Assembly (NCBI GenBank): GCA_017562135.1
Contig: QEYB01000466.1
Coordinates: 1 to 64,000, forward strand
DNA length: 64,000 nt
Origin: Dipylidium caninum
Lineage: Eukaryota > Platyhelminthes > Cestoda > Cyclophyllidea > Dipylidiidae
Reading direction: 5' to 3'
Part shown: piece by piece, positions 1-40,172 of the stretch
How positions within the stretch are numbered: position 1 is the first letter of the stretch
How the letters are laid out: every line of letters starts with the position of its first letter
The notes under the pieces: model-generated
Database searches by the model: none
Seen by the model: only the letters and a program-made list of their open reading frames with translations
What the model was told of the DNA's origin: nothing
Translations under genes and position numbers: made by a program

Positions 1-392
1 AATGCGACACCGTTTGCGACTCTGGCACACACCAGCGCGAAGAGAGGCGACGCGGCAGGGACAATTGGCGTGGACCGGTGTCTGCCGCGGGGCGAATTCC
101 CGTCAGGCGGGAGAGCAGTCGGATCGAGTGGCACCGAGCGCCACGGTGTAAGGCGTCACACTGCCACAACACGCCTGGAGAAGGCGGCCGCATAAAGAAC
201 AGGCCGGAGGACGATCCGGGAAGGACGACGAGAGGACAGGACGGACTCGGCCACGCACTGCTCCGGCACCTGACCAGACCACACACAAGCCCCACTCCTC
301 CCCATTCGCCACCGGAGCTAATTCTAGTTATGCATACGAGGCAACCGTGCGGGTGCTCACAGCACGTTTTGCATAGGTATTTCATGGTTCAA

Positions 393-646
393 TGGGACCG
401 TGAGATCACTCGAGGTAATGCAAGTAGAACTCACAGCCGACACGCGTGCGCCTCACACGGGGGTTGAAGTCAAGAGCGCCACAGCACTGCCCGTCTTGTC
501 GGGTTGGAAAAAATTGGGGGTACAGGTAAGCGAGGCGGAGCCTTTCATTGTAAGCCAACTCACTCTCGAACATAGTAGGCAACCGACCGTTGCAGAAATT
601 ACACTGGCAAGCCCGGTTGTTCGAGAACAGATACGACTGACACCCG
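393..646 (-). pseudogene. Degenerate U2 snRNA copy at left array edge
   Basis: Only islands of U2 remain: the stem-loop IV block around 393-420, the part leading into stem-loop III near 500, and the stem IIa side near 590-640. Insertions separate the islands, and the 5' end with stem I is absent. Beyond about 650 the sequence jumps to a different part of the repeat unit, so a deletion has removed the promoter side. Confidence 0.75.
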
Positions 647-858
647 ACAGGCGCCACACACGCCGCAGTGACTAACCGATGGACACGCTATCACGCGAGC
701 AGGACGACACGGATGCCAGGCAGTCGTACTGGCACACTACACGACTACCGAATATCGAGCTATGGACTCGTCGCCCTTGACCAGACCCCACCTCCCTCTC
801 CCTCTCTCATCCCGCCACCCCCGCTATTCACTATCTCTTGCTTTGCCATGACCTGAAT

Positions 859-1071
859 GGGCCGAGATCTCGCAGGTAATGCAATACGAGGCCGACCCGC
901 TCGGCAACGCCGCGCCTCCTGAGCCAACGCTACAGCACCCTCCCGGGTTTCGCAAACCATACCAGGTAATTCTTGTCCAACATCTCACTCGCGACCCGTT
1001 GCAGAACATTACAGCATGCAAGCAGAACATGACATCTTACACATGTATCTGACTCGAAGCCGAGAAGCGAT
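859..1071 (-). pseudogene. Degenerate U2 snRNA copy
   Basis: The first ten nucleotides of U2 (ATCGCTTCTC on the minus strand, ending at 1071) and the stem IV block are kept. The branch-site recognition stretch has changed from GTGTAGTATCTG to GTGTAAGATGT, the stem IIb hairpin is lost, and the copy is about 25 nt too long. The promoter-like block upstream (near 1111-1130) is still recognisable. Probably not functional. Confidence 0.8.
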
Positions 1072-1886
1072 AAAGTCCGCGCGCCTCGAGAGGCGCGCCT
1101 CGCGATCTCCACTTGCCCCGTGACCCGCCCTTCCTCACATCAAGCCGCTCACCCGCCTCGCACCGCAGGCTGCGCCTCACACGCCCTCCTCTTGGCTACG
1201 AGGCGGACCCCGACTTGTCGCCTTCCCCAGTCCAGGCTCACCGGGCTCTCCGGGCCTGTCTACAGACGCGGGCACACACTACTCACTTCGGTCCACTTGC
1301 CCATCAGTAGTTGAGGGCCGTGGAGGGGCGCCCTCTCCTCCACCAGCCTAACGAGGACTTGGGGTAGGCGCGCCCTTAGCCCAAGCGAAGGTTAAGGCGA
1401 GGCCACACTGGCCCCCTTCCAATATACTCCCAGGCGGGTTTGCCTAAGCCACGCACCTCCACTCATCGAAGTGGCGCCCACCTCCTCGTCTCTTGTCCGT
1501 GGTGCCACCTCCGCGATTGCAACACCCGTCTCCCCCCCCCCCCTCAGACTGGGGGCAATGGCGACACGGTGTGCGACTGTGGCACCACACAGGCCGAAAG
1601 AGAAGGCGACCACGGACCAGAGGACAATATGGCAGTGAGCCGGGTGTCTGCCGCGGGGCGAATTCCACCAGTCAGACAGCGGAGAGCAGTGCGATCGAGT
1701 GGCACCGAGCGCCACGGTGGAGGCGGTCAACATTTGCACCCTGAGAAGGCGGCCGCAAGACGGCCGAGAGGACGACCGGAGGAGTACGAGGACAGCGGAC
1801 GTCGGACCAGCACTGCTCCGCGCCTTGACCAGACCCCCACTCCCTCCCTTTCGCCACCGCTATTCTATTTGCTTTGCCATATGAAT

Positions 1887-2078
1887 GGCCGATCCCTCCG
1901 CGAGGTTAATGCAATACGAGGCCGACCCGTGGACGGGTTGAGCAAGCTCACAGCACCCGTCCGGGTTGGAAAAAATACAGGTAATTTCATTTGGTCCCAA
2001 ATTAGGGACCGTTGCAGAAATTACACTGCAAAGAACAGATACTACACATGATCTTAGCTCAGAGAGCCGAGAAGCGAT
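1887..2078 (-). ncRNA. RNU2: U2 snRNA, variant copy with indels
   Basis: This copy is full length but about five bases longer than the consensus. Differences cluster in the 3' stem IV (extra C and CG, extra T), the U-run (six U) and the stem IIb flank (extra T). The 5' half, including stem I and the branch-recognition segment, is intact. The 3' stem changes may weaken U2B''/U2A' binding, so it is either a minor variant or an early pseudogene. Confidence 0.7.
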
Positions 2079-2905
2079 AAAGTCGCGCGCCTCCCCGAGA
2101 GGCGCCGCCTTCGCCAGATCTCCACTTGCCCCGTGACCCGCCCTTCCTCACACTTCAAGCCCGCTCACCGCGCCTCGCACCGCAGGCTGCCGCCTCACAC
2201 GCCCTCCCTCTTGGCTACGAGGCGGACCGCCGACTTGTCCGCCTTCCCCCAGTCCAGGGCCTCCACGGGCTCCCGGGCCTGTCTACAGACGCGGGCACAC
2301 ACTACTCACTTCGGTCCACTTGCCCATCAGTAGTTGAGGGCCGTGGAGGGGCGCGCCCTCCCTCCACCAGCCTAACGAGGACTTGGGGTAGCGCGCCCTA
2401 GCCCAAGCGAAGGTAAGGCGAGGCCACACTGGCCCCCTCCAATATACTCCCCAGGCGGGTTTGCCTAAGCCACGCACCTCCACTCATCGAGGTGGCGCCC
2501 ACCTCCTCGTCTCTTGTCCGTGGTGCCACCTCCCGCGACTGCAACCCGTCTCCCCCCCCCCCCCTCAGACTGGGGGGCAATGGCGACACGGTGTGCGACT
2601 GTGGCACCACACAGGCGCGAAAGGAGAGGCGACCACGGACCAAGGACAATTGGCAGTGAGCCGGGTGTCTGCCGCGGGGCGAATTCCACCAGACAGGCGG
2701 AGAGCAGTGCGATCGAGTGGCACCGAGCGCCACGGTGGAGGCGGTCAACATTGCACCCTGGAGAAGGCGGCCGCAAGACGGCCGGAGGACGACCGGAGGA
2801 CGTACGGAGGACAGCGGACGTCGGACAGCACTGCTCCGCGCCTTGACCAGACCCCCACTCCCTCCCCTTCGCCACCGCTATTCTATTTTGCTTTGCCATA
2901 TGAAT

Positions 2906-3092
2906 GGGCCCGATCCTCGAGGTAATGCAATACGAGGCCGACCCGTGGACGGGGTTGAGCAAGCTCACAGCACCCGTCCGGGTTGGAAAAATACAGGTAA
3001 TTTCATTGGTCCCAAATTAGGACCGTTGCAGAAATTACACTGCAAAGAACAGATACTACACATGATCTTAGCTCAGAGAGCCGAGAAGCGAT
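2906..3092 (-). ncRNA. RNU2: U2 snRNA copy with two single-base changes
   Basis: This copy is 187 nt long, but compared with the consensus copy at 3911-4097 it has one extra C in the 3' stem IV and lacks one G in the 3' arm of the stem IIb hairpin, so the length is unchanged by chance. The 5' half is identical to the others. Confidence 0.85.
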
Positions 3093-3882
3093 AAAGTCGC
3101 GCGCCTCCGAGAGGCGCCGCCTCGCCAGATCTCCACTTGCCCCGTGACCCGCCCTTCCTCACACTCAAGCCCGCTCACCGCGCCTCGCACCGCAGGCTGC
3201 CGCCTCACACGCCCTCCCTCTTGGCTACGAGGCGGACCGCCGACTTGTCCGCCTTCCCCCAGTCCAGGGCCTCCACCGGGCTCCCGGGCCTGTCTACAGA
3301 CGCGGGCACACACTACTCACTTCGGTCCACTTGCCCATCAGTAGTTGAGGGCCGTGGAGGGGCGCGCCTCCCTCCACCAGCCTAACGAGGACTTGGGGAG
3401 CGCGCCCTAGCCCAAGCGAAGGTAAGGCGAGGCCACACTGGCCCCCTCCAATATACTCCCCAGGCGGGTTTGCTAAGCCACGCACCTCCACTCATCGAGG
3501 TGGCGCCCACCTCCTCGTCTCTTGTCCGTGGTGCCACCTCCCGCGACTGCAACCCGTCTCCCCCCCCCCTCAGACTGGGGGGCAATGGCGACACGGTGTG
3601 CGACTGTGGCACCACACAGGCGCGAAAGGAGAGGCGACCACGGACCAGAGGACAATTGGCAGTGAGCCGGGTGTCTGCCGCGGGCGAATTCCACCAGTCA
3701 GGCGGAGAGCAGTGCGATCGAGTGGCACCGAGCGCCACGGTGGAGGCGGTCAACATTGCACCCTGGAGAAGGCGCCGCAAGACGGCCGGAGGACGACCGG
3801 AGGACGTACGGAGGACAGCGGACGTCGGACCAGCACTGCTCCGCGCCTTGACCAGACCCCCACTCCCTCCCCTTCGCCACCG

Positions 3883-3896
3883 CTATTCTATTTTGC
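3883..3896 (-). promoter_or_regulatory. Candidate U2 3' box
   Basis: On the minus strand GCAAAATAGAATAG lies 15-28 nt downstream of the U2 3' end. It resembles the AAA-rich 3' box that directs snRNA end formation by Integrator. The element recurs below each U2 copy with only small changes. Confidence 0.4.
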
Positions 3897-3910
3897 TTTG
3901 CCATATGAAT

Positions 3911-4097
3911 GGGCCGATCCTCGAGGTAATGCAATACGAGGCCGACCCGTGGACGGGGTTGAGCAAGCTCACAGCACCCGTCCGGGTTGGAAAAATACAG
4001 GTAATTTCATTGGTCCCAAATTAGGGACCGTTGCAGAAATTACACTGCAAAGAACAGATACTACACATGATCTTAGCTCAGAGAGCCGAGAAGCGAT
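3911..4097 (-). ncRNA. RNU2: U2 spliceosomal snRNA (reference copy)
   Basis: U2 snRNA pairs with the intron branch site in the spliceosome. Read on the minus strand from 4097, it starts ATCGCTTCTCGG and continues GCTAAGATCATGTGTAGTAT, matching the near-universal 5' domain with the GUAGUA branch-site recognition element. Stem I re-pairs as GGCUC/GAGCU. Stem IIa is a perfect UUGCAG/CUGCAA hairpin, IIb is GGUCCC/GGGACC, III is closed by GGACGGG/CCCGUCC around the conserved AGCUUGCU, and IV contains UAUUGCAUUACCUC as in other animals. The stems differ from human by paired changes. Length is 187 nt against 188 in human. The single-stranded U-run is AUUUUUCC, where the usual Sm site has G after the U-run. 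Confidence 0.97.
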
Positions 4098-4140
4098 AAA
4101 GTCGCGCGCCTCCGAGAGGCGCCGCCTCGCCAGATCTCCA

Positions 4141-4158
4141 CTTGCCCCGTGACCCGCC
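4141..4158 (-). promoter_or_regulatory. Candidate U2 proximal promoter element (PSE-like)
   Basis: On the minus strand this is GGCGGGTCACGGGGCAAG at about -61 to -44 from the U2 start. It is kept in every unit with a U2 start, including the decayed copy at 859-1071, while farther spacer varies. Position fits a snRNA proximal sequence element, which is known to be poorly conserved between phyla, so the assignment rests on position and conservation only. Confidence 0.45.
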
Positions 4159-4568
4159 CTTCCTCACACTCAAGCCCGCTCACCGCGCCTCGCACCGCAG
4201 GCTGCCGCCTCACACGCCCTCCCTCTTGGCTACGAGGCGGACCGCCGACTTGTCCGCCTTCCCCCAGTCCAGGGCCTCCACCGGGCTCCCGGGCCTGTCT
4301 ACAGACGCGGGCACACACTACTCACTTCGGTCCACTTGCCCATCAGTAGTTGAGGGCCGTGGAGGGGCGCGCCCTCCCTCCACCAGCCTAACGAGGACTT
4401 GGGGTAGCGCGCCCTAGCCCAAGCGAAGGTAAGGCGAGGCCACACTGGCCCCCTCCAATATACTCCCCAGGCGGGTTTGCCTAAGCCACGCACCTCCACT
4501 CATCGAAGGTGGCGCCCACCTCCTCGTCTCTTGTCCGTGGTGCCACCTCCCGCGACTGCAACCCGTCT

Positions 4569-4592
4569 CCCCCCCCCCCTCAGACTGGGGGG
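4569..4592. repeat. C-run/G-run motif of the U2 spacer
   Basis: Eleven C, a short CT-containing loop and six G form a potential hairpin or G-quadruplex/i-motif. The same element recurs in most units with a C-run of variable length (for example near 1533, 2552, 3560, 5578, 6590, 7601 and 8614). It lies about 470 bp upstream of the U2 start in each unit and is interrupted in the diverged units at 9610 and 10680. Confidence 0.8.
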
Positions 4593-4922
4593 CAATGGCG
4601 ACACGGTGTGCGACTGTGGCACCACACAGGCGCGAAAGGAGAGGCGACCACGGACCAGAGGACAATTGGCAGTGAGCCGGGTGTCTGCCGCGGGGCGAAT
4701 TCCACCAGACAGGCGGAGAGCAGTGCGATCGAGTGGCACCGAGCGCCACGGTGGAGGCGGTCAACATTGCACCCTGGAGAAGGCGGCCGCAAGACGGCCG
4801 GAGGACGACCGGAGGACGTACGGAGGACAGCGGACGTCGGACCAGCACTGCTCCGCGCCTTGACCAGACCCCCACTCCCTCCCCTTCGCCACCGCTATTC
4901 TATTTTGCTTTGCCATATGAAT

Positions 4923-5109
4923 GGGCCGATCCTCGAGGTAATGCAATACGAGGCCGACCCGTGGACGGGGTTGAGCAAGCTCACAGCACCCGTCCGGGTT
5001 GGAAAAATACAGGTAATTTCATTGGTCCCAAATTAGGGACCGTTGCAGAAATTACACTGCAAAGAACAGATACTACACATGATCTTAGCTCAGAGAGCCG
5101 AGAAGCGAT
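4923..5109 (-). ncRNA. RNU2: U2 snRNA, consensus copy
   Basis: Identical by eye to the 3911-4097 copy, with the same upstream promoter-like block and the same 3'-box-like element. Confidence 0.96.
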
Positions 5110-5932
5110 AAAGTCGCGCGCCTCCGAGAGGCGCCGCCTCGCCAGATCTCCACTTGCCCCGTGACCCGCCCTTCCTCACACTCAAGCCCGCTCACCGCGC
5201 CTCGCACCGCAGGCTGCCGCCTCACACGCCCTCCCTCTTGGCTACGAGGCGGACCGCCGACTTGTCCGCCTTCCCCCAGTCCAGGGCCTCCACCGGGCTC
5301 CCGGGCCTGTCTACAGACGCGGGCACACACTACTCACTTCGGTCCACTTGCCCATCAGTAGTTGAGGCCGTGGAGGGGCGCGCCCTCCCTCCACCAGCCT
5401 AACGAGGACTTGGGGTAGCGCGCCCTAGCCCAAGCGAAGGTAAGGCGAGGCCACACTGGCCCCCTCCAATATACTCCCCAGGCGGGTTTGCCTAAGCCAC
5501 GCACCTCCACTCATCGAGGTGGCGCCCACCTCCTCGTCTCTTGTCCGTGTGCCACCTCCCGCGACTGCAACCCGTCTCCCCCCCCCCCTCAGACTGGGGG
5601 GCAATGGCGACACGGTGTGCGACTGTGGCACCACACAGGCGCGAAAGGAGAGGCGACCACGGACCAGAGGACAATTGGCAGTGAGCCGGGTTGTCTGCCG
5701 CGGGGCGAATTCCACCAGACAGGCGGAGAGCAGTGCGATCGAGTGGCACCGAGCGCCACGGTGGAGGCGGTCAACATTGCACCCTGGAGAAGGCGGCCGC
5801 AAGACGGCCGGAGGACGACCGGAGGACGTACGGAGGACAGCGGACGTCGGACCAGCACTGCTCCGCGCCTTGACCAGACCCCCACTCCCTCCCCTTCGCC
5901 ACCGCTATTCTATTTTGCTTTGCCATATGAAT

Positions 5933-6119
5933 GGGCCGATCCTCGAGGTAATGCAATACGAGGCCGACCCGTGGACGGGGTTGAGCAAGCTCACAGCACC
6001 CGTCCGGGTTGGAAAAATACAGGTAATTTCATTGGTCCCAAATTAGGGACCGTTGCAGAAATTACACTGCAAAGAACAGATACTACACATGATCTTAGCT
6101 CAGAGAGCCGAGAAGCGAT
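5933..6119 (-). ncRNA. RNU2: U2 snRNA, consensus copy
   Basis: Identical by eye to the reference copy. Its surrounding spacer is also the consensus type. Confidence 0.96.
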
Positions 6120-6939
6120 AAAGTCGCGCGCCTCCGAGAGGCGCCGCCTCGCCAGATCTCCACTTGCCCCGTGACCCGCCCTTCCTCACACTCAAGCCCG
6201 CTCACCGCGCCTCGCACCGCAGGCTGCCGCCTCACACGCCCTCCCTCTTGGCTACGAGGCGGACCGCCGACTTGTCCGCCTTCCCCCAGTCCAGGGCCTC
6301 CACCGGGCTCCCGGGCCTGTCTACAGACGCGGGCACACACTACTCACTTCGGTCCACTTGCCCATCAGTAGTTGAGGGCCGTGGAGGGGCGCGCCCTCCC
6401 TCCACCAGCCTAACGAGGACTTGGGGTAGCGCGCCCTAGCCCAAGCGAAGGTAAGGCGAGGCCACACTGGCCCCCTCCAATATACTCCCCAGGCGGGTTT
6501 GCCTAAGCCACGCACCTCCACTCATCGAGGTGGCGCCCACCTCCTCGTCTCTTGTCCGTGGTGCCACCTCCCGCGACTGCAACCCGTCTCCCCCCCCCCC
6601 CTCAGACTGGGGGGCAATGGCGACACGGTGTGCGACTGTGGCACCACACAGGCGCGAAAGGAGAGGCGACCACGGACCAGAGGACAATTGGCAGTGAGCC
6701 GGGTGTCTGCCGCGGGGCGAATTCCACCAGACAGGCGGAGAGCAGTGCGATCGAGTGGCACCGAGCGCCACGGTGGAGGCGGTCAACATTGCACCCTGGA
6801 GAAGGCGGCCGCAAGACGGCCGGAGAGACGAGGACGTACGGAGGACGCGACGTCGGACGTCGACGGAGCACTGCTCCGCGCCTTGACCAGACCCCCTCCC
6901 TCGCCACCGCTATTCTATTTGCTGCTTTGCCATATGAAT

Positions 6940-7127
6940 GGGCCGATCCTCGAGGTAATGCAATACGAGGCCGACCCGTGGACGGGGTTGAGCAAGCTCA
7001 CAGCACCCGTCCGGGTTGGAAAAAATACAGGTAATTTCATTGGTCCCAAATTAGGGACCGTTGCAGAAATTACACTGCAAAGAACAGATACTACACATGA
7101 TCTTAGCTCAGAGAGCCGAGAAGCGAT
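6940..7127 (-). ncRNA. RNU2: U2 snRNA, six-U Sm-region variant
   Basis: 188 nt. It differs from the reference only by one additional U in the U-run between stems IIb and III. The spacer on its 3' side (about 6820-6925) has lost and rearranged short GGACGACCGGAGGACG repeats. Confidence 0.95.
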
Positions 7128-7955
7128 AAAGTCGCGCGCCTCCGAGAGGCGCCGCCTCGCCAGATCTCCACTTGCCCCGTGACCCGCCCTTCCTCACACT
7201 CAAGCCCGCTCACCGCGCCTCGCACCGCAGGCTGCCGCCTCACACTCCCTCCCCTCTTGGCTACGAGGCGGACCGCCGACTTGTCCGCCTTCCCCCAGTC
7301 CAGGGCCTCCACCGGGCTCCCGGGCCTGTCTACAGACGCGGGCACACACTACTCACTTCGGTCCACATTGCCCATCAGTAGTTGAGGGCCGTGGAGGGGC
7401 GCGCCCTCCCTCCACCAGCCTAACGAGGACTTGGGGTAGCGCGCCCTAGCCCAAGCGAAGGTAAGGGCGAGGCCACACTGGCCCCCTCCAATATACTCCC
7501 CAGGCGGGTTTGCCTAAGCCACGCACCTCCACTCATCGAGGTGGCGCCCACCTCCTCGTCTCTTGTCCGTGGTGCCACCTCCCGCGACTGCAACCCGTCT
7601 CCCCCCCCCCCCTCAGACTGGGGGGCAATGGCGACACGGTGTGCGACTGTGGCACCACACAGGCGCGAAAGGAGAGGCGACCACGGACCAGAGGACAATT
7701 GGCAGTGAGCCGGGTGTCTGCCGCGGGGCGAATTCCACCAGACAGGCGGAGAGCAGTGCGATCGAGTGGCACCGAGCGCCACGGTGGAGGCGGTCAACAT
7801 TGCACCCTGGAGAAGGCGGCCGCAAGACGGCCGGAGGACGACCGGAGGACGTACGGAGGACAGCGGACGTCGGACCAGCACTGCTCCGCGCCTTGACCAG
7901 ACCCCCACTCCCTCCCCTTCGCCACCGCTATTCTATTTTGCTTTGCCATATGAAT

Positions 7956-8142
7956 GGGCCGATCCTCGAGGTAATGCAATACGAGGCCGACCCGTGGACG
8001 GGGTTGAGCAAGCTCACAGCACCCGTCCGGGTTGGAAAAATACAGGTAATTTCATTGGTCCCAAATTAGGGACCGTTGCAGAAATTACACTGCAAAGAAC
8101 AGATACTACACATGATCTTAGCTCAGAGAGCCGAGAAGCGAT
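7956..8142 (-). ncRNA. RNU2: U2 snRNA, consensus copy
   Basis: Identical by eye to the reference copy, in a consensus-type spacer. Confidence 0.96.
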
Positions 8143-8950
8143 AAAGTCGCGCGCCTCCGAGAGGCGCCGCCTCGCCAGATCTCCACTTGCCCCGTGACCC
8201 GCCCTTCCTCACACTCAAGCCCGCTCACCGCGCCTCGCACCGCAGGCTGCCGCCTCACACGCCCTCCCTCTTGGCCCTACGAGGCGGACCGCCGACTTGT
8301 CCGCCTTCCCCCAGTCCAGGGCCTCCACCGGGCTCCCGGGCCTGTCTACAGACGCGGGCACACACTACTCACTTCGGTCCACTTGCCCATCAGTAGTTGA
8401 GGGCCGTGGAGGGGCGCGCCCTCCCTCCACCAGCCTAACGAGGACTTGGGGTAGCGCGCCCTAGCCCAAGCGAAGGTAAGGCGAGGCCACACTGGCCCCC
8501 TCCAATATACTCCCCAGGCGGGTTTGCCTAAGCCACGCACCTCCACTCATCGAGGTGGCGCCCACCTCCTCGTCTCTTGTCCGTGTGCCACCTCCCGCGA
8601 CTGCAACCCGTCTCCCCCCCCCCCTCAGACTGGGGGGCAATGGCGACACGGTGTGCGACTGTGGCACCACACAGGCGCGAAAGGAGAGGTGACCACGGAC
8701 CAGAGGACAATTGGCAGTGAGCCGGGTGTCTGCCGCGGGGCGAATTCCACCAGACAGGCGGAGAGCAGTGCGATCGAGTGGCACGAGCGCCACGGTGGAG
8801 GCGGTCAACATTGCACCCTGGAGAAGGCGGCCGCAAGACGGCCGGAGACGACCGGAGGACGTACGGAGGACAGCGGACGCAGACACTGCTCCGCGCCTCG
8901 ACCAGACCCCCACTCGCCACCGCTATTCTATTTTGCTTTGCCATATGAAT

Positions 8951-9138
8951 GGGCCGATCCTCGAGGTAATGCAATACGAGGCCGACCCGTGGACGGGGTT
9001 GAGCAAGCTCACAGCACCCGTCCGGGTTGGAAAAAATACAGGTAATTTCATTGGTCCCAAATTAGGGACCGTTGCAGAAATTACACTGCAAAGAACAGAT
9101 ACTACACATGATCTTAGCTCAGAGAGCCGAGAAGCGAT
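8951..9138 (-). ncRNA. RNU2: U2 snRNA, six-U variant
   Basis: 188 nt with six U in the Sm region, as at 6940. The base four positions upstream of its 5' end differs (AAGG instead of AAAG on the plus strand). From here rightwards the spacers begin to diverge. Confidence 0.95.
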
Positions 9139-10013
9139 AAGGTCGCGCGCCTCCGAGAGGCGCCGCCTCGCCATATCTCCACTTGCCCCGTGACCCGCCC
9201 TTCCTCACACTCAAGCCCGCTCACCGCGCCTCGCACCGCAGGCTGCCGCCTCACACGCCCTCCCCTCTTGGCCCTACGAGGCCGACCGCTGACTTGCTCG
9301 CCTTCCCCCAGTGCCAGGGCCTCCACCGGGCTCCCGGCCTGTCCACAGACGCGGGCACACACTACTCACTTGGGCGCACTTGCGCATCAGTAGTTGAGGC
9401 CGTGGAGGCGCGCCCTCCTCCACCAGCCTAACGAGGACTTGGGGTAGCGCGCCCTAGCCCACGAAGGTGGCGAGGCCACACTGACCCCCTCCAATGTACT
9501 CCGCCAGGCAGGTAAGCCTAAGCCACGCACCTCCACTCCCATCGAGGTGGCACCCACCTCCTCGTCTCTTGTCCCCGTGTGCCACCTCTCCGCGACTGCA
9601 ACCCGTCTCCTCGCCTCTGCCCCTCCCAGACTGGGGGGCAATGGCGACACGGCGTGGACTGTGGCACGACACAGGGCGAAAGGAGAGGTGACCACGGACC
9701 AGAGGACAATTGGCAGTGAGCCGGGTGTCGGCTCCCTACACTCTAGCGTATGCGCGGGGTGCTACGAGGAAGGTTGTCCAATTCCAGACAGGCGGAGAGC
9801 AGTGCGATCGAGTGGCACCGAGCACCACGGTGGAGGCGGTTAACCTCGCCCTCTGAAGAAGGCGGCCGAATGACGAGACGAGACGAGACCCCCGCCCCGC
9901 CCCGCCGACGTACGGAGGAAGGCGGACGTCGGACCAGACACCGCTCCGCGCCTTGACCAGACCCCCACTCCCTCCCCTTCGCCACCGCTACTATTTTGCT
10001 TTGCCATATGAAT

Positions 10014-10200
10014 GGGCCGATCCTCGAGGTAATGCAATACGAGGCCGACCCGTGGACGGGGTTGAGCAAGCTCACAGCACCCGTCCGGGTTGGAAAAATA
10101 CAGGTAATTTCATTGGTCCCAAATTAGGGACCGTTGCAGAAATTACACTGCAAAGAACAGATACTACACATGATCTTAGCTCAGAGAGCCGAGAAGCGAT
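10014..10200 (-). ncRNA. RNU2: U2 snRNA, consensus copy in a diverged spacer
   Basis: The snRNA is identical to the reference although the spacer on its 3' side carries many indels, including an insertion at about 9728-9775. The contrast suggests selection or gene conversion acting on the RNA gene. Confidence 0.96.
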
Positions 10201-11019
10201 AAAGTCGCGCGCCTCCGAGAGGCGCCGCCTCGCCAGATCTCCACTTGCCCCGTGACCCGGCCTTCCTCACACTCAAGCCCGCTCACCGCGCCTCGCACCG
10301 CAGGCTGCCGCCTCACACGCCCTCCCCTCTTCCCTACGAGGCGGACCGCCGACTTGTCTCGCCTTCCCCCAGTGCAGGGCCTCCACCGGGCTCCCAGGGC
10401 CTGTCCACAGACGCGGGCACACACTACTCACTTGGTCCACTTGCCATCAGTAGTTGCAGGCCGTGGAGGGCGCGCCCTCTCCACCAGCCTAACGAGGAGT
10501 TGGGGTAGCGCGCCCTAGCCTCAAGCGAAGGTAAGGCGAGGCCACACTGGCCCCCTCCAATATACTCCGCCAGGCGGGTTTGCCTAAGCCACGCACCTCC
10601 ACTCATCGAGGTGGCGCCCACCTCCTCGTCTCTTGTCCCGTGTGCCACCTCCCGCGACTGCAACCGTCTCCTCGCCTCCCCACCTCCCCCCCTCAGACTG
10701 GGGCAGGGGCGACACGGCGTGCGACTGTGGCACGACACAGGCGCGAAAGGAGAGGTGACCACGGACCCCAGAGGACAATTGGCAGTGAGCCGGGTGTCTG
10801 CCGCGGGGCGAATTCCACCAGACAGGCGGAGAGCAGTGCACGATCGAGTGGCAGCGAGCACCACGGTGGAGGCGGTTAACATTGCACCCTGGAGAAGGCG
10901 GCCGCAAGACGAGCGAGACGAGACGACCGGAGGACAGGCGGAGACGCAGACACTGCTCCGCGCCTCGACCAAGACCCGCCCTCGCCACCGCTATTCTATA
11001 TTTGCTTTGCCATATGAAT

Positions 11020-11206
11020 GGGCCGATCCTCGAGGTAATGCAATACGAGGCCGACCCGTGGACGGGGTTGAGCAAGCTCACAGCACCCGTCCGGGTTGGA
11101 AAAATACAGGTAATTTCATTGGTCCCAAATTAGGGACCGTTGCAGAAATTACACTGCAAAGAACAGATACTACACATGATCTTAGCTCAGAGAGCCGAGA
11201 AGCGAT
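11020..11206 (-). ncRNA. RNU2: U2 snRNA, consensus copy in a diverged spacer
   Basis: The snRNA is identical to the reference. The 3' flank has TCTATATTTGC in place of TCTATTTTGC, a small change inside the 3'-box-like element. Confidence 0.96.
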
Positions 11207-12065
11207 AAAGTCGCGCGCCTCCGAGAGGCGCCGCCTCGCCATATCTCCACTTGCCCCGTGACCCGCCTTCCTCACACTCAAGCCCGCTCACCGCGCCTCG
11301 CACCGCAGGCTGCCGCCTCACACTCCCTCCCTCTTGGCCCTACGAGGCCGGACCGCTGACTTGCTCGCCTTCCCCCAGTGCATGGCCTCCACCGGGCTCC
11401 CAGGCCTGTCTACAGACGCGGGCACACACTACTCACTTCGGTCGCACATGCCCATCAGTAGTTGCAGGCCGTCGGAGGGGCGCGCCCGCTCTCCACCAGC
11501 TAACGAGGAGTTGGGGTAGCGCGCCTAGCCTCAAGCGAAGGTGGCGAGGCCACACTGACCCCCTCCAATATACCCGCCAGGCAGGTAAGCCTAAGCCACG
11601 CACCTCCACACCCATCGAGGTGGCGCCCACCTCCTCGTCTCTTGCCGTGTGCCACCTCCGCGACTGCAACGCGTCTCCTCCCTCTGCCCCACCTCAGACT
11701 GGGGCAGGGGCGACACGGCGTAGGACTGTGGCACGACAGGGCGAAAGGAGAGGCGACCACGGACCCCAGAACAATTGGCAGTGAGCAGGGTGTCGGCTCC
11801 TACACTCTAGGCGTATGCGAGGCGGTGGTGCTACGGGCCCCGGCCGCGGGGTGAATTCCACCAGACAGGCGGAGCGCAGTGCACGATCGAGTGGCACCGA
11901 GCACCACGGTGGAGGCGGTTAACATTGCCCTCTGGAGAAGGCGGCCGAGATGATACGAGACGAGACCGAGGACGTACGGAGGACAGCGGAGTCGCAGCAC
12001 CGCTCCGCGCCTTGACCAAGCCCGCCCCTCGCCACCGCTATTCTATATTGCTTTGCCATATGAAT

Positions 12066-12230
12066 GGGCCGATCCTCGAGGTAATGCAATACGAGGCCGA
12101 CCCGTGGACGGGGTTGAGCAAGCTCACAGCACCCGTCCGGGTTGGAAAAATACAGGTAATTTCATTGGTCCCAAATTAGGGACCGTTGCAGAAATTACAC
12201 TGCAAAGAACAGATACTACACATGACCTTA
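12066..12230 (-). pseudogene. 5'-truncated U2 snRNA at right array edge
   Basis: The 3' part of U2, from the end of stem I to stem IV, matches the consensus with one mismatch at 12226. It stops at 12230, so the first ~22 nt, which hold most of stem I, and the whole upstream promoter are missing. The near-perfect remainder argues that the break is young or that the copy is kept uniform by conversion. Confidence 0.9.
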
Positions 12231-12882
12231 TTGGCTCTAGCCATTGAACTGCCCGCCAGGCTGCAGTTTATTAATGTGTTGCATCTGTATTTCTGTTTTC
12301 CACTGCTATGTCTCCTTTTTTTCTATTTTATCTTCCTTTCACCCTTTGATTTTTGAATTTTTGCACTGACCTCGTTTTTCTTTTTAATTCTTTTATTTCA
12401 TCACCCATTTTCCACACTGTATGCGTTATGCGAGCTTTCCCATCTTTTTTTTATGACGCACTCTCTGCCAAATCACATCCTTTAATTGTTTCTGTCTTTT
12501 TATAAAACTTATATGATATTTAGAATTTAATTGCTGTAATTTGATGAAAGACTTCTTGTTAAAGAATTCTCAATCTTCGTATTCCTGAATTCTACCCAAT
12601 TACTCGTTTATCGCAGAAACCCTCGATATATCCGTTTTAGGGATTGGTTGGTGTCGAAGCTCTCCTTCCAGTACCTGAAATTGAATTATAATACAAGGCG
12701 TTCAATTTGCGCTTCCTTGAAGGAACACAGTTTAATGATTTATAGCCCTTATAAGTGCCGTGAATAGTTCTTACGGGATTCCCTCTCTTAGAAAGCGGGC
12801 ATTTCTTTTGGTCCCTCCTTTAAATAAGAATCTATAATACGTGGTTCTGTGCCTAACACAACAGCTTTCCGAATCGACATAC
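12231..12882. other. AT-rich flank between U2 array and CLINT1 stop
   Basis: Single-copy, T-rich DNA on the plus strand. It should hold the 3' UTR of the minus-strand CLINT1-like gene; a minus-strand AATAAA lies near 12267-12272. No other gene seen. Confidence 0.5.
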
Positions 12883-15800
12883 CTAAAATATTAAAAATAT
12901 CTCCTTACCGGGAGAAGTGTTTTGAGCTGTCATTTGTTGGGTGGCAGTAGGAGTTCGTTTGAGACTCTGTAACTGACTAAGGCTCGGAGCGGCAGGTTTG
13001 ACGGGGTTGCTCTTGACCGTCTTGAGGTCTAGGTCCAGATTAAAAGCGTCTAAATCCTTCCACGTATTGCCAAAGTTAGAATGGGCCCTTTTGGTCTGGT
13101 TGCAAGTCTGATGGTTGGACGTAGAAGGTGAAGCAAGCACCGAATTCTGTTGTTGCTGCCATTGTAATAGGGGTAAGTTTGAATAAATACATGATCCAAA
13201 TATTCGTCAAAGAAAATCAAAAAGGTATAAAAGGACATTCGTAAATCAGCCAATGAATTTCGCAGCTCCATCAGGGGAAAGCGCAAGCAAGTCAAGACTG
13301 TTTAAAACCTCAATTTTAGAGGTTTCTTTCAACTAATGGGAAAAATCTCCTCGACATCTGATGAGACGGAGACCAAGAGTGTGATCGCTACTACTTACGC
13401 ATTTGTTTATCGCAATGACATAAAACACCTGACCGTGGATTGATCGGTCTTGAGTGGAATTAAGGCTGAACGAGGTGAGAGTAGAATTAGACGGAGGGGC
13501 CTAGGAAAGACACACTGTCGTGCCATAGGAGCTGCGTCTGCACACAGGCCCGCACACAGCCTTGCACCGGCAGGCAGGCATAGACAAGAAGTAGGCGACG
13601 TGGGGCAATCGATCGATAAGAGCGCGATGGCACCCGCACACGCCGATGTCAGGGCGCGCGTGCGGATGTGCCTGTGCGTGTGCGTACGTGCATGCGTGCG
13701 CACGCATTCATTCGACGCGTCTGCATTGGCGGGGTGAGGAGCACAGGGCACAACACGAGTTCGGCTACTTTTATGCGAATTAGAGTAAAAATGTTAACGA
13801 TTCCGACGCTATTCGAGTTATGCTAGTAAGTTGGGGGGGTGGGGGGGGTGGGGGGGAGAAAAGAGTCCTTTACTTTCAGGAGTAAAAAGATAGCAATTCC
13901 TCAAGTTTCACACTGTTGTGGGGTATAAACAACAACAACAATGAGATGAGCTAAGCTATTTCCTTTTACAACAAAGCAATTTGGCTCAGATAAATCCCAG
14001 GATGTTGAATCATTGAAATATCATTGCTCCGAGGCTAAGGCAAAGATGAATGGAATTGATGTTTGAAAAATAACTACACGTTTTACAAGCTGGTGTATTT
14101 GGTATAGAATTAATGACACCAGGTTAGAAATTTGATTGTAAGTTGACCCGGTGAAATCCGAATAGTGAGTTGACCGATGCTTTCAGAAAGACTAAACCAA
14201 CTACAACAAATGAACGATATTCCAAAATCTAAGCTTCTGAATGCACCGATACGAGCGATCGAGTCTAACTCGACTAACAAACCGACAAAAAATGCAAAAG
14301 AACGGTTAATGATACTGCAATTTGGAACTCAAACATGCCTGAAGGCAAATTTAATAAAGACATTTAAAAATAAAGCAAGAAATGATCTTTTTGCCCAGAA
14401 TTCGTAGATTTTGTACCTCCGGTACTGAATCAATTAGCATACCATCAGATAAATAGAACTAGAAAACACCCAACTGTCTTGAGAACAAACATGCAATGCA
14501 CATTTGTAAAGTAATTTATCAACACGCCACAATACTCAAAATAAAGAGCTAACCGAGATAACCGAGGAAGGAGATGTTGGTGTCATGGGAGCTTGACCGG
14601 AGGCATGAACTGTGGGAGAAGAGGGTAACGTATAGCCATCGAAAAAGGGGTCAACTGGTTGAGTGGTCGGTTGGACAGGTTTGGCAGCGGCGGTGGACTT
14701 CACAGATGACTCGGCACCGAAGGCAGCATGGAAACTTGAAAAGTCACCGAAATCCGCGTCACTCGTGACAGCAGTAGTCGAGACGGTTGATGCTGTTGTA
14801 GGCACGTCCGTTGATCTCAAGTTCACAAGAATACTGAAATAGGAAGAATAAGATTGTTATCACTGCAAGTTACGGATTTTGGTACTTGAAAGGTGATGAC
14901 AATTCAGTGACCTAGGTCTCGTAAATAATTCATTTCGGATTATGCACTCACAAACCGTTTAGACAACCGCAATTATCAAACTTAGTGAGAAAATAGTAGA
15001 ATATCGTGGCATCATCAGTGCACATATGGAGTTTTCACAGGCTCATGTCACTATCTAAGACCTTAAACCAAAACCAAGTTAAAGCCACAAACTTGTGCAA
15101 TAGAACAATGAAATTCCTTATCTTCTGTTTTAGTATTAAGTTCACAAGGAGGCAGGAGAACAGTTTACTATTACATGCAGTAGGAAAACAGATATTGCGA
15201 CTGAGTAGTTTGGTGAAAATGGCAAAATGACCCAATTCAAAACAACACTGGAAACTCAATATATGGATAACGCAATTTTAAGCGTTTTAGTCGCCGAGGC
15301 ATGAAAATTACTAAAGCGGACAGTGGAAATGACTGCAGAAAACGACAAGTAATTGTCTACATTAGAAGACCTTGGAGGAAAGTATTAAAATGGTACAGGG
15401 TGTCATATAAACGAGCTGCTAAACTTACTCCGTAGTAGAACTGGTAACATTCGCTGACGATTTGACTTGAAGTTTGTCCAGTTCAGCAAAAAAATCGACC
15501 TCCTTTTCGATCTGTCCATTTTTCGGTGGCGACGCCAGCATTTCCGTTGAAGGGGGTCTAGGCAATCTCGTGGGAGTCTACAAATTCATAAAAGTCCCAA
15601 TTGTTCAGAGGGAAAAGGTGAATTCGGGGCGTGCAAGACTTCATAACGAGAACGATGAAATCCTCGAGATACCTTCAAATGTAGTCCTTAGAACAATAGC
15701 AAATGCAACTGACCCCATAACTTTCTGAGAAGAATCGCAAATGTTAAAAAGAACTGTCACATGTTTGATGTTTGAAGCCAAAATAAGTGATGATTTAGGC

Positions 15801-18800
15801 GAGAATAAGTGAAATCATATATGAAATTGGTCACGAAATTGTGAGGTGAAAGGTCAGCGCGCCCAGACTTGTGACAATTGTACGGTTTTATGGCGATATT
15901 TAGTCTATTATAAATTTACCTCAAAAGCATGCTTTTCAGAGAATTTATGGAAATGGACTATTAGTAAAAAATAGCGTTAATATTATAAAGACTAATAGCA
16001 AACCGAAGTCGAAAAAAGATCGGGTATCTAAAGAAATCAGCAGTGTTGAACTTCTAGGTGAAAAACTACTGTCTCAGACGGCTCCCTATCAGTGAACAGA
16101 CTGTTTCTTATCAGTCAGCATAGTTGAAAAGACAAATTGACGTAACCGTAAACACACAGTAATAGTGGATTCCTTTGACGGAGGGTCGAATTCTATCAGA
16201 GAAGCTGGAGCTGGCGACGGTTTTTCATGTCGGACTGCTGACGGGAGATTAGTGGGAAGGGTCGAACTATAAGAGTTATGCATGTCTTCCGATTGATCAA
16301 CTTCAACATCCGGAAAGGTGAAGGTCTCCTCGGAGACCTTATGTGGATCCTCTTCGAATCTGCAAGTCGATTAAGTGGAAAATAAGAAAAGGCACAGAAT
16401 AAACACTAATCCGAGTGCCTCGATTACTGCAAAGCGGGAAGCACGAACTGAGTAGCCGGTTAAGTGGAATCCTGTAAGGCAGTCGTAGACAAGCACTTTG
16501 AAAGCCACAAATAACATTCTTATATGGTTGAGAAGATGGCAACATTCTGTCTTTCGAAGGCAAACCTTAATCAGTACACATGTGCCCCAAAGGTTTCTTG
16601 TAGCAAATAACAAAGGCCATCGGTGAAAAAATCCAGTTTCCATAATTAGGAGTCCGTTCTCCGTCCTCCTCAAGGCAGATGCGCCTGGACATTAATGGTC
16701 ACCTAGCAACCATACACAAACACAAAATGCGTGAAGTAGGGATAATGGCGATAATTTGTATTAAAGTAGTAAGTGATAAGGGAAAAGGAGGGGGAGAGGG
16801 TTAAACTCACTGATCACTAAACAAGGTCGCCTCATGGAAAGTCGTTTTTTGGTACCTTTTGTGCGACTTAGGGGATAAGGCGATTAAAAGAACAAAAACG
16901 TGACGAGTATGTTGCTCAATGAGAAGACGCACAGTCCAATTCGTGGAGGTCATTTGTCGGATATATCAAGATGTAGAAATCCAGTGAGTAGATGAATCAT
17001 AGACTTCACTGTCGTAATCTCCATATTTATAAATGCCAGATAAAAAGGAAAATTAAAAACATGGCTTGTGGTAAAGTGGCGGATGCAATGATTTGGGCAC
17101 CACATCATTCTCCAAAGGAAGCATATGTCATAGTTAGGTTTACTACCAGTTTCGCACACATAACGTTGTGATGTCATGTCACATGGCAAATGTTTTGGCG
17201 CAAAGTAAACAAAGTAAGTGCGAGTTGTTCTCGATCAAACAATACGTCGCATTATCAACCTTAGAAAATGCCAAACTACTATTAGGGCACATCTGAAGAT
17301 GGAAGCGGTCTATTTTTTAATGAGATAATACCATCGAAGCAGCCAAAAACGCCTAATTTTGTAGGAATATTTACTTTAGGAAGCAACGATGGTGGAAAGA
17401 AAGTCATTGAAGGTTATCCACAATTTTGAGGCATTTCAGAGGAAAATACTCCGAATACAAAGGTATGGAAGAGGAAATTCGGAGGAAATTAGGCAAAATA
17501 AACGTCGAGTAGAGAAGCCATCGCCAATATCATGCTTCAGGCATTTCCTAGAATATGAATATGCATTCTATCCCTGCCTTAATTAAATTACGGGCATATG
17601 AAAACAGGTTAGCTTTCGAGACGATAAAATCAAAGAAGGAATGTTCGAGTTAAAACTTAAGGCGCATTGTTTTAGGTAAATAGATACAAAATCAAATGTA
17701 CATTAAATCAGTTTCAAAGTACAAAAAGGTAGTGCCATTTGTTTAACGTGAATATGACCTCACCAACGGCAATTAAGTGTGCCAAATAAGCACACAACTG
17801 GGTTTTAGCTCCGCATTTAAGTGGTGAGTAAATTGAACTCAAGATAGTCAATAGTGGAATGGTTGTCCAAGTAACCTGATGCAAAAACGGTTGTGAGGAC
17901 GTGCGCGGCAAGAGTGTCAAACCATCAACCGACTAACAGAATCTAGTAGATTAAATCACCCTATGAGGATAGTTTTTTATGGAATTTGGAGCCGAGTACA
18001 CGTATATAAAGGTGATTTTGCTGCTCACAGTTCAACAAAACAAAGTGAAGTGTGTTTATGACACTACGACCGCTGGTTTGGAAGCAATGGGCAAAATAAC
18101 CCACAATTGTGGAAGGTAAATGAGAAGATCGAGGTGTCAATGTTATTGCATCGGAAAATCCAACAGTGGATGCGATTAAAACACACCAAAATACCTAACA
18201 CTGACTATATAACTATCGAAAGATATTTAGAGGGAAGACAGTAAAAACACCAAGAGACATGGCAATATAGTTTTAGTAGTTTGGAAATATAAAAAGAAAA
18301 AACCAAGTGCATACTAAATCGCGAAGCCGGTGTCTAAGTAACGTTTCAGGCTATTGTCTACAAAGATAATATTTGCATTGGAGTATAAATGTGTTGCATA
18401 GACCACTCGAAATCAAATTGCCAATATCTAGACTGAGTACTGATAATCCGTTTAGTTTCGTTGAATTAATGTCTATAGAACAGTTTGTCTTGATTAGAAG
18501 CACCTTATAGTACATCCAAGTAAAAATGATCTATGAATTCCCATCACAGCGGAAGTGAAAGTGCACCCTGTGAAGACCACACCATTTTCATATGTCTGAA
18601 AAGGTTGTATAGAGAAGAATATTAAAGCGATATCTATATAAATTATAAAGATGTTTACCAAATATGTAATCAAAAATGCCACGAATGCTGGTTTACTGAT
18701 TAACTGTGTATGTAAAAGGAAGCACTCAGTAGTCTGTTGAACACAATAAGTTAAGTGGAACAGCAGTTATACCCAAAAGTGTGGACATTTCAGCTACCTA

Positions 18801-20270
18801 TATCGATAGAAATATACATACAACCCGAATCTATTCCAACTAGCCTACTAAATGGCAGCAGGCAGTGTAGATGATTCAAGGAACAAACAATGAAATGTGA
18901 AAAAGGGAAAACCTTTTCAGAAGGGAAATAATGAGCCACGGAAGGAAAGCACTCAAACATGTTACCGACTCTATACCGATGAGGCTTACATCGAAGGCGG
19001 GGGAACTCTTGGCCTGCCCAGAAAATCGTTTGTTACGGCTTTAGCAGCCCTCAGGACCTCAGAAAACTTATCAGCAACATCGTCAGCTATGGTGCGCTCA
19101 TGGGCGTCTTTCCATGACTCAAAACTACCCAGCCGGTTGGAAGCGATGGTATTGCTCTCATGACTCTTTTCTGTGTGGAGCCACGGCATCTCAGCCTGCG
19201 GCGCGGAGCGTGAGGGAAGACGACAGAGGTTGTCACGATCCAAATGATCAGGATTATTCCCCAAATCATACCTTTTTATGAAAGGTTAGAGTGCGTCAGT
19301 GAATTGTGATAAAGCACGCAGTTATAAATAAGTAGACACATATAAGTATTAATAAGCACACGATAAGGGTAAAAAAGTTGGGAGGGGGGACAAATAAAAA
19401 AACACATTTATGGATACTGCAAGGCATTAAACGAAAGGAAATACTATAAAATGTTCAAGTCTAAAATCTTACATTCCAAAGTTACCAGAGTAGTTAGAGC
19501 TTCGGAAATGATTGCTTCCAATGCCAGCATAGACCTTTTGATTTGAAAGAGCTTTATTTCGCTCAGCTTGTAGAAACTCATTGTCTTGAATAAGTTCCAC
19601 AACTTCGTGTGCCTTAATCCGCACTGTGAGGAGATAACATTACCTAAGTTTATAGACATACCAGAAGAACCTAGATCCCGACCACGCAAATCAATGCATT
19701 GGTAATTTTCAAGGGAACGGAGATTGAAAAGATGGTCACGGGCAATTTCACATACATTCTCAGAGCCATTGCGCAGTAAGTAGGCGAGGACTACTAACCC
19801 CTAAAATACGAGCAATCAAAAAATGAATAGGTTCGATGAAATAATAGGAAAGGTAGAGAGAAAATTCCTAAAAAATGCACCCAAGTGATAGTACAGTTTG
19901 ACAGAAAAAAACTAATTTCTTCACTTTTCAATGATTATCAACGGGAATTGCAAACCAGTGAACAATATAATTCTGAGAATACTTTGTGGATTCGTCGCCA
20001 GTTTTCTGAGTTTTCTGGAAAGATTCGGGTCATCAGCATCGTCATGATTTCCAGAAGGCCTTCTGTGTCGTAGGTTTCCTTTGCGAGGTCATTGAGAATA
20101 GTTCCATGGGGCCCCCAAGGCTCGTCACTAGTTGCCTCACGAACCTTGTTTTCCAGCTCCGTATAGTTCATAACAGCGGCGGCTCTTAAATGAAAACTTG
20201 GAAAAAATACAAAAACTCACATCTTATCGACCCATACTTTCCCTTTTTCTAAATATTCGCGGAACATCAT
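12883..20270 (-). CDS. CLINT1: CLINT1/epsinR-like ENTH clathrin adaptor
   Basis: An ENTH adaptor that binds phosphoinositides and helps clathrin/AP-1 trafficking between trans-Golgi and endosomes. Nine exons give a closed 575-aa frame (human CLINT1 is 625): 20270-20221, 20184-19983, 19800-19662, 19623-19473, 19271-18990, 16359-16158, 15577-15429, 14833-14554, 13155-12883. Residues 10-170 are the ENTH domain, with VMNYTELENKVREAT, the DEPWGPHGT block, NWRRIHKGLVVLAYLLRNGS and the RSLENYQ region. The tail is disordered and holds LIEFDPPS near 326 and an acidic-phenylalanine motif DFGDFSSF near 419, of the type that binds adaptor ear domains. The stop follows immediately in the last exon. The first two introns (36 and 182 nt) and the third (38 nt) are short; introns at 13156-14553 and 16360-18989 are long and hold nothing recognised apart from G/GT-rich tracts. 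ENTH sequence favours CLINT1 over epsin 1-3, because no ubiquitin-interacting motif was seen. Confidence 0.88.
13655..13706. repeat. Alternating GT/GC purine-pyrimidine tract
   Basis: A stretch dominated by TGTGCG, CGTGCG and TGCATGCG steps inside the last CLINT1 intron. Such alternation can adopt Z-DNA. Confidence 0.6.
13833..13857 (+). repeat. G-run tract, possible G-quadruplex
   Basis: Three runs of seven or eight G separated by single T lie in the last CLINT1 intron; on the transcribed strand they read as C-runs. Confidence 0.6.
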
Positions 20271-34646: not shown

Positions 34647-35126
34647 GCTTTGAAATTCTGATTTTTATGGTTTTGCCTTTTCTGGGTGGATAAGCAAATC
34701 CTAACCACTATACTATCCCACCTCTTGGCGAGTCTCAGTACTCGAAGTCAAGTCTGTAGACGTTATTGGTTGAGTTAACCCTCAAGGAATCATAACCGCC
34801 GACATCAACTTCCACGCGAGAATGGCCTAATGAAAACTGCGAAGTAGTCCAACACCCCTAGCCTGATAAAATAAATCAGTGCGGTCCTCAACACGTTTTT
34901 CCGCTATCTGAGCACCCAACTATTGACGCGGCACCATGTTTGTTACTTTCAGAAGACTAGTCTCAATCAAGTAAGACGAAAGGTATCAGTATGTGTAAAA
35001 TCTGGTGAACTAGATAAAATCTAGCATTGTCCCCCTAACGCAAAAAACATGTAACACATTTTGGATTTGTTAGATGAGAAAAAGGGGTTTACAGACAAGA
35101 AGGTACAAATGTAGGAGTAAAGTTAG
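34647..35126. other. Convergent 3' region of WDR59 and SMARCE1
   Basis: 480 bp between stop codons of two genes facing each other. It should hold both 3' UTRs. AATAAA-like words on the plus strand occur near 34868-34872; nothing else recognised. Confidence 0.5.
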
Positions 35127-39035: not shown

Positions 39036-40172
39036 ATGAATAATGAACAAAGGCAACGGTTGTGTCGGATGCAAGTCGATTTTGTTAAAGGATTGCATGA
39101 TATCGAAAATATAACTGACTACCTTCTTTCCCATAATATCCTATCGCGTAATCAGGTAGAGCAAATCCTTTCATCTGGTCCCGCAATATCCGATAAAATC
39201 AGGACTTTCCTCACTGTTTTGGTTCGTTGTGGCCCTGATGCTTACGATACTTTCTTATCAGCCCTTTCTGAAACGAACCAATCCTTTCTGGTGGAAAAAA
39301 TGAAAAATTTGGATTTAAATTGCCACGAATCGTCATCAGCGCCACTTCCACCTAAGACAACAGTTAATATCGCCGAAAAACAAATGCAGTCCCTTGTTGC
39401 ATATCCTGTCAATTCGAATCCATGTGGATATATTCTTCTTATCAATGTCTCCAATTTCGAATCGGGTTCGGGTCTCAGTAACCGCATAGGTTCTTCCAAA
39501 GACGTCTCCGCTTTAAAGTCCCTCTTTATTGATCTGGGATACGTCGTTGAAGTTCTTCTAGACCCGAACTCAACAGTTTTGGAGTCCAGTCTCAATGCTT
39601 TTATAAGAAGTCCCAGCCATTATGAAGTTGACGCCGGTGGACTCATTGTTATGTCGCACGGGTTACAAGACTACATCTACACCGCCGATGGGAAACTTTT
39701 TGCTATTAATGATATTCTCAACGCTTTTACAAACAAATCTCTCCCAGCTCTGGCTGGGAAACCTAAATTCATTTTAGTTCAAGCCTGTAGAGGTGACGAG
39801 AAAGACCGTGGATACGTGCTTAGACTAAATGTTTCAAGTGCCCCCACATGTCCTTCAGAGAACGTCGACGCAACGGTAGATAAGAGCTATTGGCAGTGTT
39901 TACCCTATATGAGTGACTACATAATTGCTTACTCCACTCTTCCTGGGTTCGTGTCCTGGCGTTCGGAAAAAGAGGGGAGCTGGTTCATCCAGATACTTGT
40001 TGACGTGTTTCGCAAGTACGCTGATTCTTTGCATGTTCTCGATCTGCTAACCGAAGTTAATCGCCGCCTAGTTGAGGAGTCCCAAGATCGCGAGTTCAAA
40101 CAGATCACTCAACAGTCCCATACCCTCACTCGACCCTTCTATTTGTCCACTGCGCATTTTAACTCTAAGTAA
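39036..40172 (+). CDS. Intronless CARD-containing initiator caspase (caspase-2/CED-3 type)
   Basis: A cysteine protease of the apoptotic pathway, 378 aa in a single exon. Residues 1-90 form a CARD death-fold domain, with MQVDFVKGLHDIENITDYLL and the RCGPDAYDTFLSALSET segment that aligns well with caspase-2 (RGPQAFDAFCEALRET). The catalytic domain follows: GYILLINVSNF near 131, the active-site histidine in VMSHG (His 208) and the catalytic cysteine in QACRG (Cys 251). The small subunit has the substrate-binding VSWRSEKEGSWF stretch near 306-317. The linker between subunits is only about 30 residues. The domain order is that of an apoptosome-type initiator such as CED-3, Dronc or caspase-2; the sequence alone does not choose among them, so no symbol is given. 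The start is the first ATG in frame, 30 bases after a T-rich stretch. Lack of introns contrasts with neighbours of 4-22 exons. Confidence 0.9.
   Translation: MNNEQRQRLCRMQVDFVKGLHDIENITDYLLSHNILSRNQVEQILSSGPAISDKIRTFLTVLVRCGPDAYDTFLSALSETNQSFLVEKMKNLDLNCHESSSAPLPPKTTVNIAEKQMQSLVAYPVNSNPCGYILLINVSNFESGSGLSNRIGSSKDVSALKSLFIDLGYVVEVLLDPNSTVLESSLNAFIRSPSHYEVDAGGLIVMSHGLQDYIYTADGKLFAINDILNAFTNKSLPALAGKPKFILVQACRGDEKDRGYVLRLNVSSAPTCPSENVDATVDKSYWQCLPYMSDYIIAYSTLPGFVSWRSEKEGSWFIQILVDVFRKYADSLHVLDLLTEVNRRLVEESQDREFKQITQQSHTLTRPFYLSTAHFNSK

Follow-up and report, generated by a model that had tools for sequence, protein, structure and literature searches.

A head-to-tail array of U2 small nuclear RNA genes and its upstream edge in a cestode genome

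The window that was analysed consists of bases 1-64000 of contig C867 (64 kb, 0 N) from a cestode genome assembly of 106.3 Mb in 920 contigs. The start of the window is a genuine head-to-tail array of U2 small nuclear RNA (snRNA) genes. The whole window was searched against Rfam using cmscan with the gathering cut-off for RF00004 (U2), which is 46 bits. Eleven gathering-level U2 matches were identified between 1883 and 12267, all on the minus strand, with scores of 130.8-161.4 bits. Ten of the 11 copies are full length and nine of these score at least 157.9 bits. No Rfam family other than U2, ribosomal RNA (rRNA) included, was found at gathering in the window, and ARAGORN (bacterial code) found no transfer RNA there.

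The units of the array were identified using blastn with the reference unit 4916-5925 as query. Positions 854-12058 consist of 11 head-to-tail units of 995-1063 bp each, with a repeat of about 1,010 bp, and each unit holds U2 only. A shortened copy (12059-12230) and damaged scraps within 4-804 lie beyond the full units. The G+C content per kb is 0.59-0.64 within the array and falls to 0.41 for the kilobase containing the edge (12001-13000). The array does not have any CA or GA run of at least 6 repeats. The initial annotation had described a tandem U2 array on the minus strand, spanning about 1-12230 with G+C-rich units of about 1 kb, and each part of that description agrees with these results. 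The check it had proposed, Infernal with RF00004 on the minus strand, gave 11 significant matches to U2 and none to another snRNA. The features of the array are as follows.

1..853, no strand: contig-end array sequence, heavily damaged, spacer and U2 scraps (blastn scraps 4-314 at 78%, 585-606 and 775-804)
854..1071, minus: U2 copy close to the contig end, badly damaged (72% identity to the reference copy with 38 gaps over 224 columns of alignment, no gathering-level Rfam match)
1883..2078, minus: U2 with small insertions and deletions (indels) in the contig-end zone (RF00004 130.8 bits, 95%)
2900..3092, minus: U2 gene, one base deleted and one inserted (RF00004 159.1 bits)
3904..4097, minus: U2 gene identical to the reference (RF00004 161.4 bits, 194/194)
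4916..5109, minus: U2 gene, the reference copy (RF00004 161.4 bits)
5110..5227, minus: conserved proximal promoter, -1 to -118, of an example unit (low substitution among 10 chosen units)
5146..5168, minus: element like a proximal sequence element (PSE), -59 to -37, of the example unit (invariant 23-mer among 10 chosen units)
5926..6119, minus: U2 gene identical to the reference (161.4 bits, 194/194)
6933..7127, minus: U2 gene whose T run in the Sm-site region is one T longer (157.9 bits)
7949..8142, minus: U2 gene identical to the reference (161.4 bits, 194/194)
8944..9138, minus: U2 gene in the first of the edge-type units, with an additional T (157.9 bits, spacer 8.6% substituted)
10007..10200, minus: U2 gene of an edge-type unit, identical to the reference (161.4 bits, spacer 6.0% substituted)
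11013..11206, minus: U2 gene of the last complete unit, identical to the reference (161.4 bits, spacer 8.8% substituted)
12059..12230, minus: edge copy, U2 lacking the promoter and the first ~22 nt (99.4% over 172 bases)

The U2 RNA was compared with the Rfam consensus using the copy at 4097-3904. Forty-two of the 45 consensus pairs are standard, of which 34 are unchanged and 8 are changed on both sides and still pairing. No pair is changed on one side only, and the other 3 of the 45 are non-standard. The RNA carries GUAGUA, which we take to be the branch-site recognition motif (GUGUAGUAUCUG in the Rfam alignment), and a putative Sm-binding site (UAUUUUUCC) is in place, with last bases that differ from the consensus. 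The predicted 5' start is the A of AUCGCUUC. The branch-recognition element and the stems are visible, as had been noted from the sequence alone. The paired changes noted there are also present (8/45), although their basis of comparison here is the Rfam consensus and not human U2. In the copies at 6933-7127 and 8944-9138 the T run of the Sm-like site is longer by one T, which is either a variant or a homopolymer error.

At least 46 U2 matches were listed genome-wide, all of them on three contigs, C103 (16), C517 (21), and C867 (9); the count is a lower bound where 46 of 2472 candidates were scored and 2 of the 11 window matches were left out. A search of the genome DNA with a whole unit, which skipped common words, found 8 pieces and intact units were not among them. 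A 67% match from that search on contig C276 was dropped since it has no Rfam family at gathering.

An alignment of 56 units was made from C867 (11), C103 (17), and C517 (28). The U2 is identical to the reference in 6/11, 15/17, and 12/28 of these units, respectively, and 15 of the 17 C103 spacers have 0-1 mismatches to the reference. The core units are near-identical, as would be expected under concerted evolution. Ten units, 4 from C867 (reference included) and 6 from C517, were chosen for the conservation footprint. Substituted columns among them number 0/194 in U2 (with one inserted base), a figure that depends on the choice because units with U2 damaged at contig ends or in degraded C517 parts are excluded. 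The same ten units exhibit 4/120 substituted columns at -1 to -120 and 159/696 in the other spacer, so that 20% of the spacer columns overall are substituted. The 14 edge-type units (3 from C867 and 11 from C517) have no U2 mismatch, and 2 of the 14 have one inserted base.

The conserved promoter contains the invariant 23-mer at -59 to -37 in the ten chosen units. A CAAG motif at -47 to -45 is found in 6 of the 8 snRNA promoters that were compared (U1, U2, two U4, U5, and U12, one copy each). It is absent from the U1 of C219 and from U6. The motif was spotted by eye before the shuffle test, where 0/1000 shuffles reached 6/8 for any 4-mer in any 3-nt window and 20/500 reached it when an 11-nt window was allowed anywhere.

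On its right side the array has a real upstream edge. The match to the unit ends after 172 bases of U2 in the last copy, where the first ~22 nt and the promoter are missing. Rfam extends the match of this copy to 12267 (131.3 bits), past the blastn end at 12230. The edge copy has 1 mismatch within reference positions 1-170, and it is preceded by three units that have diverged spacers and unsubstituted U2. The same junction recurs in C517.

The C867 and C103 arrays each have one orientation throughout and are head-to-tail. The upstream edge lies on C867 and the downstream edge on C103. The U2 genes of C867 point away from its flank and those of C103 point toward theirs, which is the arrangement that two ends of a single array should show. 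A FIBP gene opens the C103 flank. One gene from each flank is located on the same contig in Echinococcus granulosus (27,399,268 bp) and in Taenia crassiceps (12,609,106 bp), which makes a single locus likely; we regard C867 and C103 as probably the two ends of one locus on this comparative ground. The locus has about 28 or more units, provided that C867 (11) and C103 (17) have no overlap. C517, a contig of 48.9 kb made up almost entirely of array, was left out of this count because of orientation flips, degraded sequence, and an uncorrected-looking tail that aligns to the window flank at 81.5% identity (263 gaps and 116 mismatches over 2047 columns).

We consider it very probable that the window holds one end of a working RNU2-type cestode locus, where transcription and the mechanism of exchange are what we infer from sequence. 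The locus would consist of some 28 or more head-to-tail units of about 1.01 kb, each with one snRNA promoter and one U2 in the same direction of transcription. Core copies would be kept alike by unequal exchange and gene conversion. The spacers would drift toward the upstream edge while U2 and about 118 bp of promoter stay fixed, and the array would stop within a U2 copy whose 5' end and promoter are lost. Several findings weigh against this account. The last bases of the Sm-like site (AUUUUUCC) differ from the usual consensus. The synteny rests on one gene per flank, and the contigs of the relatives are chromosome-sized, so the sharing could be by chance. The figure of 28 units includes two badly damaged contig-end units and assumes no overlap between C867 and C103. 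C517 flips its orientation in two regions of degraded sequence, at about 10.4-17 kb and 28-30.6 kb, which makes the layout tentative. The C517 edge also has 11 variant units versus 3 on C867.

The array length and the edge units may partly be an assembly artefact, with C517 a chimeric or misjoined contig from long reads and with C867 and C103 collapsed. The flips with degraded sequence and the tail that resembles uncorrected reads speak for this explanation, and we give it somewhat less than an even chance. However, C867 and C517 share the edge junction, and both C867 and C103 have a single orientation. Seven C517 variant units also differ pairwise by 0.7-3.8%, which indicates a real unit type; the eighth, at 34988, stands apart at 6.6-8.5%.

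The edges of C867 and C517 may represent two alleles, one with 3 edge-type units and the other with 11. They have a common junction and different unit content, and human RNU2 alleles are reported to range from 6 to 82 copies (PMC3795722). However, C517 is unreliable elsewhere and the divergence between the flanks is mostly error-like gaps. This explanation is plausible, with roughly one chance in three.

The left side does not exhibit a second edge, although the decay of both array edges had been described as visible. It is base 1 of C867, and only the right side is an edge. That both sides are true edges with biological decay is very unlikely to us, even though the damage does rise toward base 1, with 193/194 U2 positions matched in unit 2899, 185 in unit 1880, and 126 in unit 854. 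The array-side end of C103 (units 26-889 and 890-1896) exhibits a similar gradient, where the first unit has 118/194 U2 positions matched and the second has an intact U2 and a spacer with 27 mismatches and 22 indel events. The true downstream edge of C103, in contrast, keeps 98-99% identity with the reference unit all the way to its junction at 17765. The spacers of units 1880 and 2899 have 0-1 mismatches and 9-10 indel events to the reference, whereas those of the real edge units 8944, 10007, and 11013 have 47-69 mismatches and 20-24 indel events. Biological decay of a left edge was therefore rejected on three grounds, namely the start of the window at contig base 1, the similar gradient on C103, and the indel-rich and mismatch-poor differences of the damaged units; the damage looks like sequence error at a contig end. 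Two observations favour decay. The U2 of unit 854-1879 (126/194) is worse than its own spacer (41 mismatches and 29 indel events), a pattern that simple indel error does not predict, and the spacer of the second C103 unit has mismatches together with its indels.

U2-derived pseudogene repeats are known in animals, and the edge copy has no promoter, yet a U2-derived satellite of mostly dead pseudogenes with the working U2 gene elsewhere is extremely improbable given the full-length, high-scoring copies of the window, the conserved promoter, and the restriction of U2 matches to the three array contigs in the 46 of 2472 candidates that were scored.

The array directly abuts protein-coding genes, as had been proposed in the initial annotation. 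The gene next to the edge has an ENTH domain, is on the minus strand like U2, and faces the array with its 3' end.

12886..20216, minus: ENTH-domain gene, approximate extent (PF01417)

PF01417 matches this gene at 19941-20216 (4e-17) and 19447-19800 (2.1e-7), and Pfam has no match on 16092-16370 and 14539-14856. The downstream exons are predicted from open frames. The gene is presumably CLINT1/epsinR-like, judging from a motif. About 30 kb from the U2 array, the minus strand carries a G-patch domain (46049-46576) and a GCFC domain (41214-41729) in the stretches 45406-46576 and 41214-41729. We take these to be from a TFIP11-like spliceosome disassembly factor, and its proximity to the U2 array is probably a coincidence.

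A flatworm-like genome had been suggested, and protein comparison identifies the genome as that of a cestode. Caspase-2, encoded at 39036-40169, shares 76-77% identity with the Taenia solium and E. granulosus proteins, 73-74% with those of Hydatigera taeniaeformis and T. crassiceps, 70% with Anoplocephala, and 66-67% with Hymenolepis and Mesocestoides. For a second protein, from C103, the identity is 59-60% with taeniid proteins and 53% with Mesocestoides over 70% of the query. The two proteins place the genome in the cyclophyllidean cestodes, probably near Taeniidae.

The genome has other snRNA genes in arrays. U1 has 26 matches above the cut-off (30 listed in all) on C219, C388, C506, and C802, with a spacing of about 1.45-1.46 kb on C802 and 1.52-1.62 kb on C388 and C506. 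The U1 arrays have at least two unit types, where C388 has 10 GA and 2 CA runs and C802 has 11 CA and 0 GA runs (at least 6 repeats). These runs are reminiscent of the U1/EmsB microsatellites of Echinococcus. U5 arrays are found on C233 (7 copies) and C539 (6 copies), with units of about 1.65 and 2.0 kb, and one further U5 match is on C533. A whole U6 is divergent beside one U5 in each array, and each of the remaining 11 of the 13 U5 copies has both ends of a U6 next to it. Each unit seems to hold U5 and U6 in head-to-head orientation, which we infer in part. U4 occurs in two pairs and U12 once. The U4 pairs, on C29 and C486, are about 1.27 kb apart and their surroundings are 78-96% identical in pieces, which may denote a segmental duplication or diverged haplotypes. 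The G+C content per kb is mostly 0.60-0.66 in the U1 arrays and 0.54-0.61 in the U5/U6 arrays, and about 0.37-0.51 in the array flanks. It is 0.40-0.55 around the U4 pairs and is not raised there. An Echinococcus pattern for the spliced leader gave 0 matches at up to 3 mismatches, a result of little weight since the letters of the pattern may be wrong.

Tandem U1 and U2 genes are already known in animals, cestodes included. The passages of PMC3795722 on human and primate RNU2 describe head-to-tail near-identical U2 units with one gene each near protein-coding DNA. The window array has the same arrangement, but its unit is about 1.0 kb and not 6.1 kb. The U2 genes reported for E. granulosus G1 lie within long repeat regions of chromosomes 2 and 4 (PMC8894454), so U2 in repeat regions is common to both cestodes. 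The relevant passages of that report list U2 together with rRNA genes, with counts of 44 and 80 for the whole sets, and contain no unit anatomy, whereas the units of the window hold no rRNA at gathering. The cestode U1 repeats, namely the U1 satellite ClatSat13-761 of Caryophyllaeus laticeps (PMC12274263) and the U1 microsatellites of Echinococcus multilocularis, to which EmsB may belong (PMC12714974; for EmsB also PMC8518320 and PMC4700906), likewise have an snRNA gene in tandem. The U1 arrays of the present genome carry CA or GA runs, unlike the window array, which is of U2. Schistosoma also has multicopy U2, with 15 sequences in S. mansoni (3 after merging identical flanks) and 1-63 in S. 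japonicum, and the relevant passages of that report (PMC2770079) describe no tandem layout. Further literature includes PMC6312358. The statement in the initial annotation that no description of such an array was known is weakened by the E. granulosus U2 repeats and the cestode U1 repeats. A literature search mostly outside subscription journals found no published unit anatomy of a cestode U2 array.

The edge copy bears on how the U2 genes of this locus are kept identical. At the 8.8% substitution of the adjoining spacer, about 15 substitutions would be expected in its 170 bases, and 0-1 are observed, with 1 mismatch in C867 and 0 mismatches and 9 indel bases in the uncorrected C517 copy. Selection on a near-unmutated copy without promoter is unlikely, and conversion or recent truncation would explain its sequence. 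Polishing is argued against as the cause since the uncorrected C517 copy agrees. Conversion may be focused on U2 and about 118 bp of promoter regardless of selection on each copy, with the same GC-biased recombination making the U1, U2, and U5/U6 arrays G+C-rich. This broader proposal is rather doubtful at about one chance in four. The edge units are as G+C-rich as the core units (0.631-0.644), so there is no edge/core difference in favour of GC-biased conversion.

This work provides a resolved edge of a cestode U2 array together with the junction, the promoter footprint, and the anatomy of the unit. Genotyping in this group already makes use of U1 repeats as markers. The parallel rise of G+C in three types of snRNA array can be tested as a footprint of biased conversion. 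The edge copy that lacks a promoter and is otherwise intact is a natural test, relevant to concerted evolution, of conversion versus selection in keeping snRNA genes identical.

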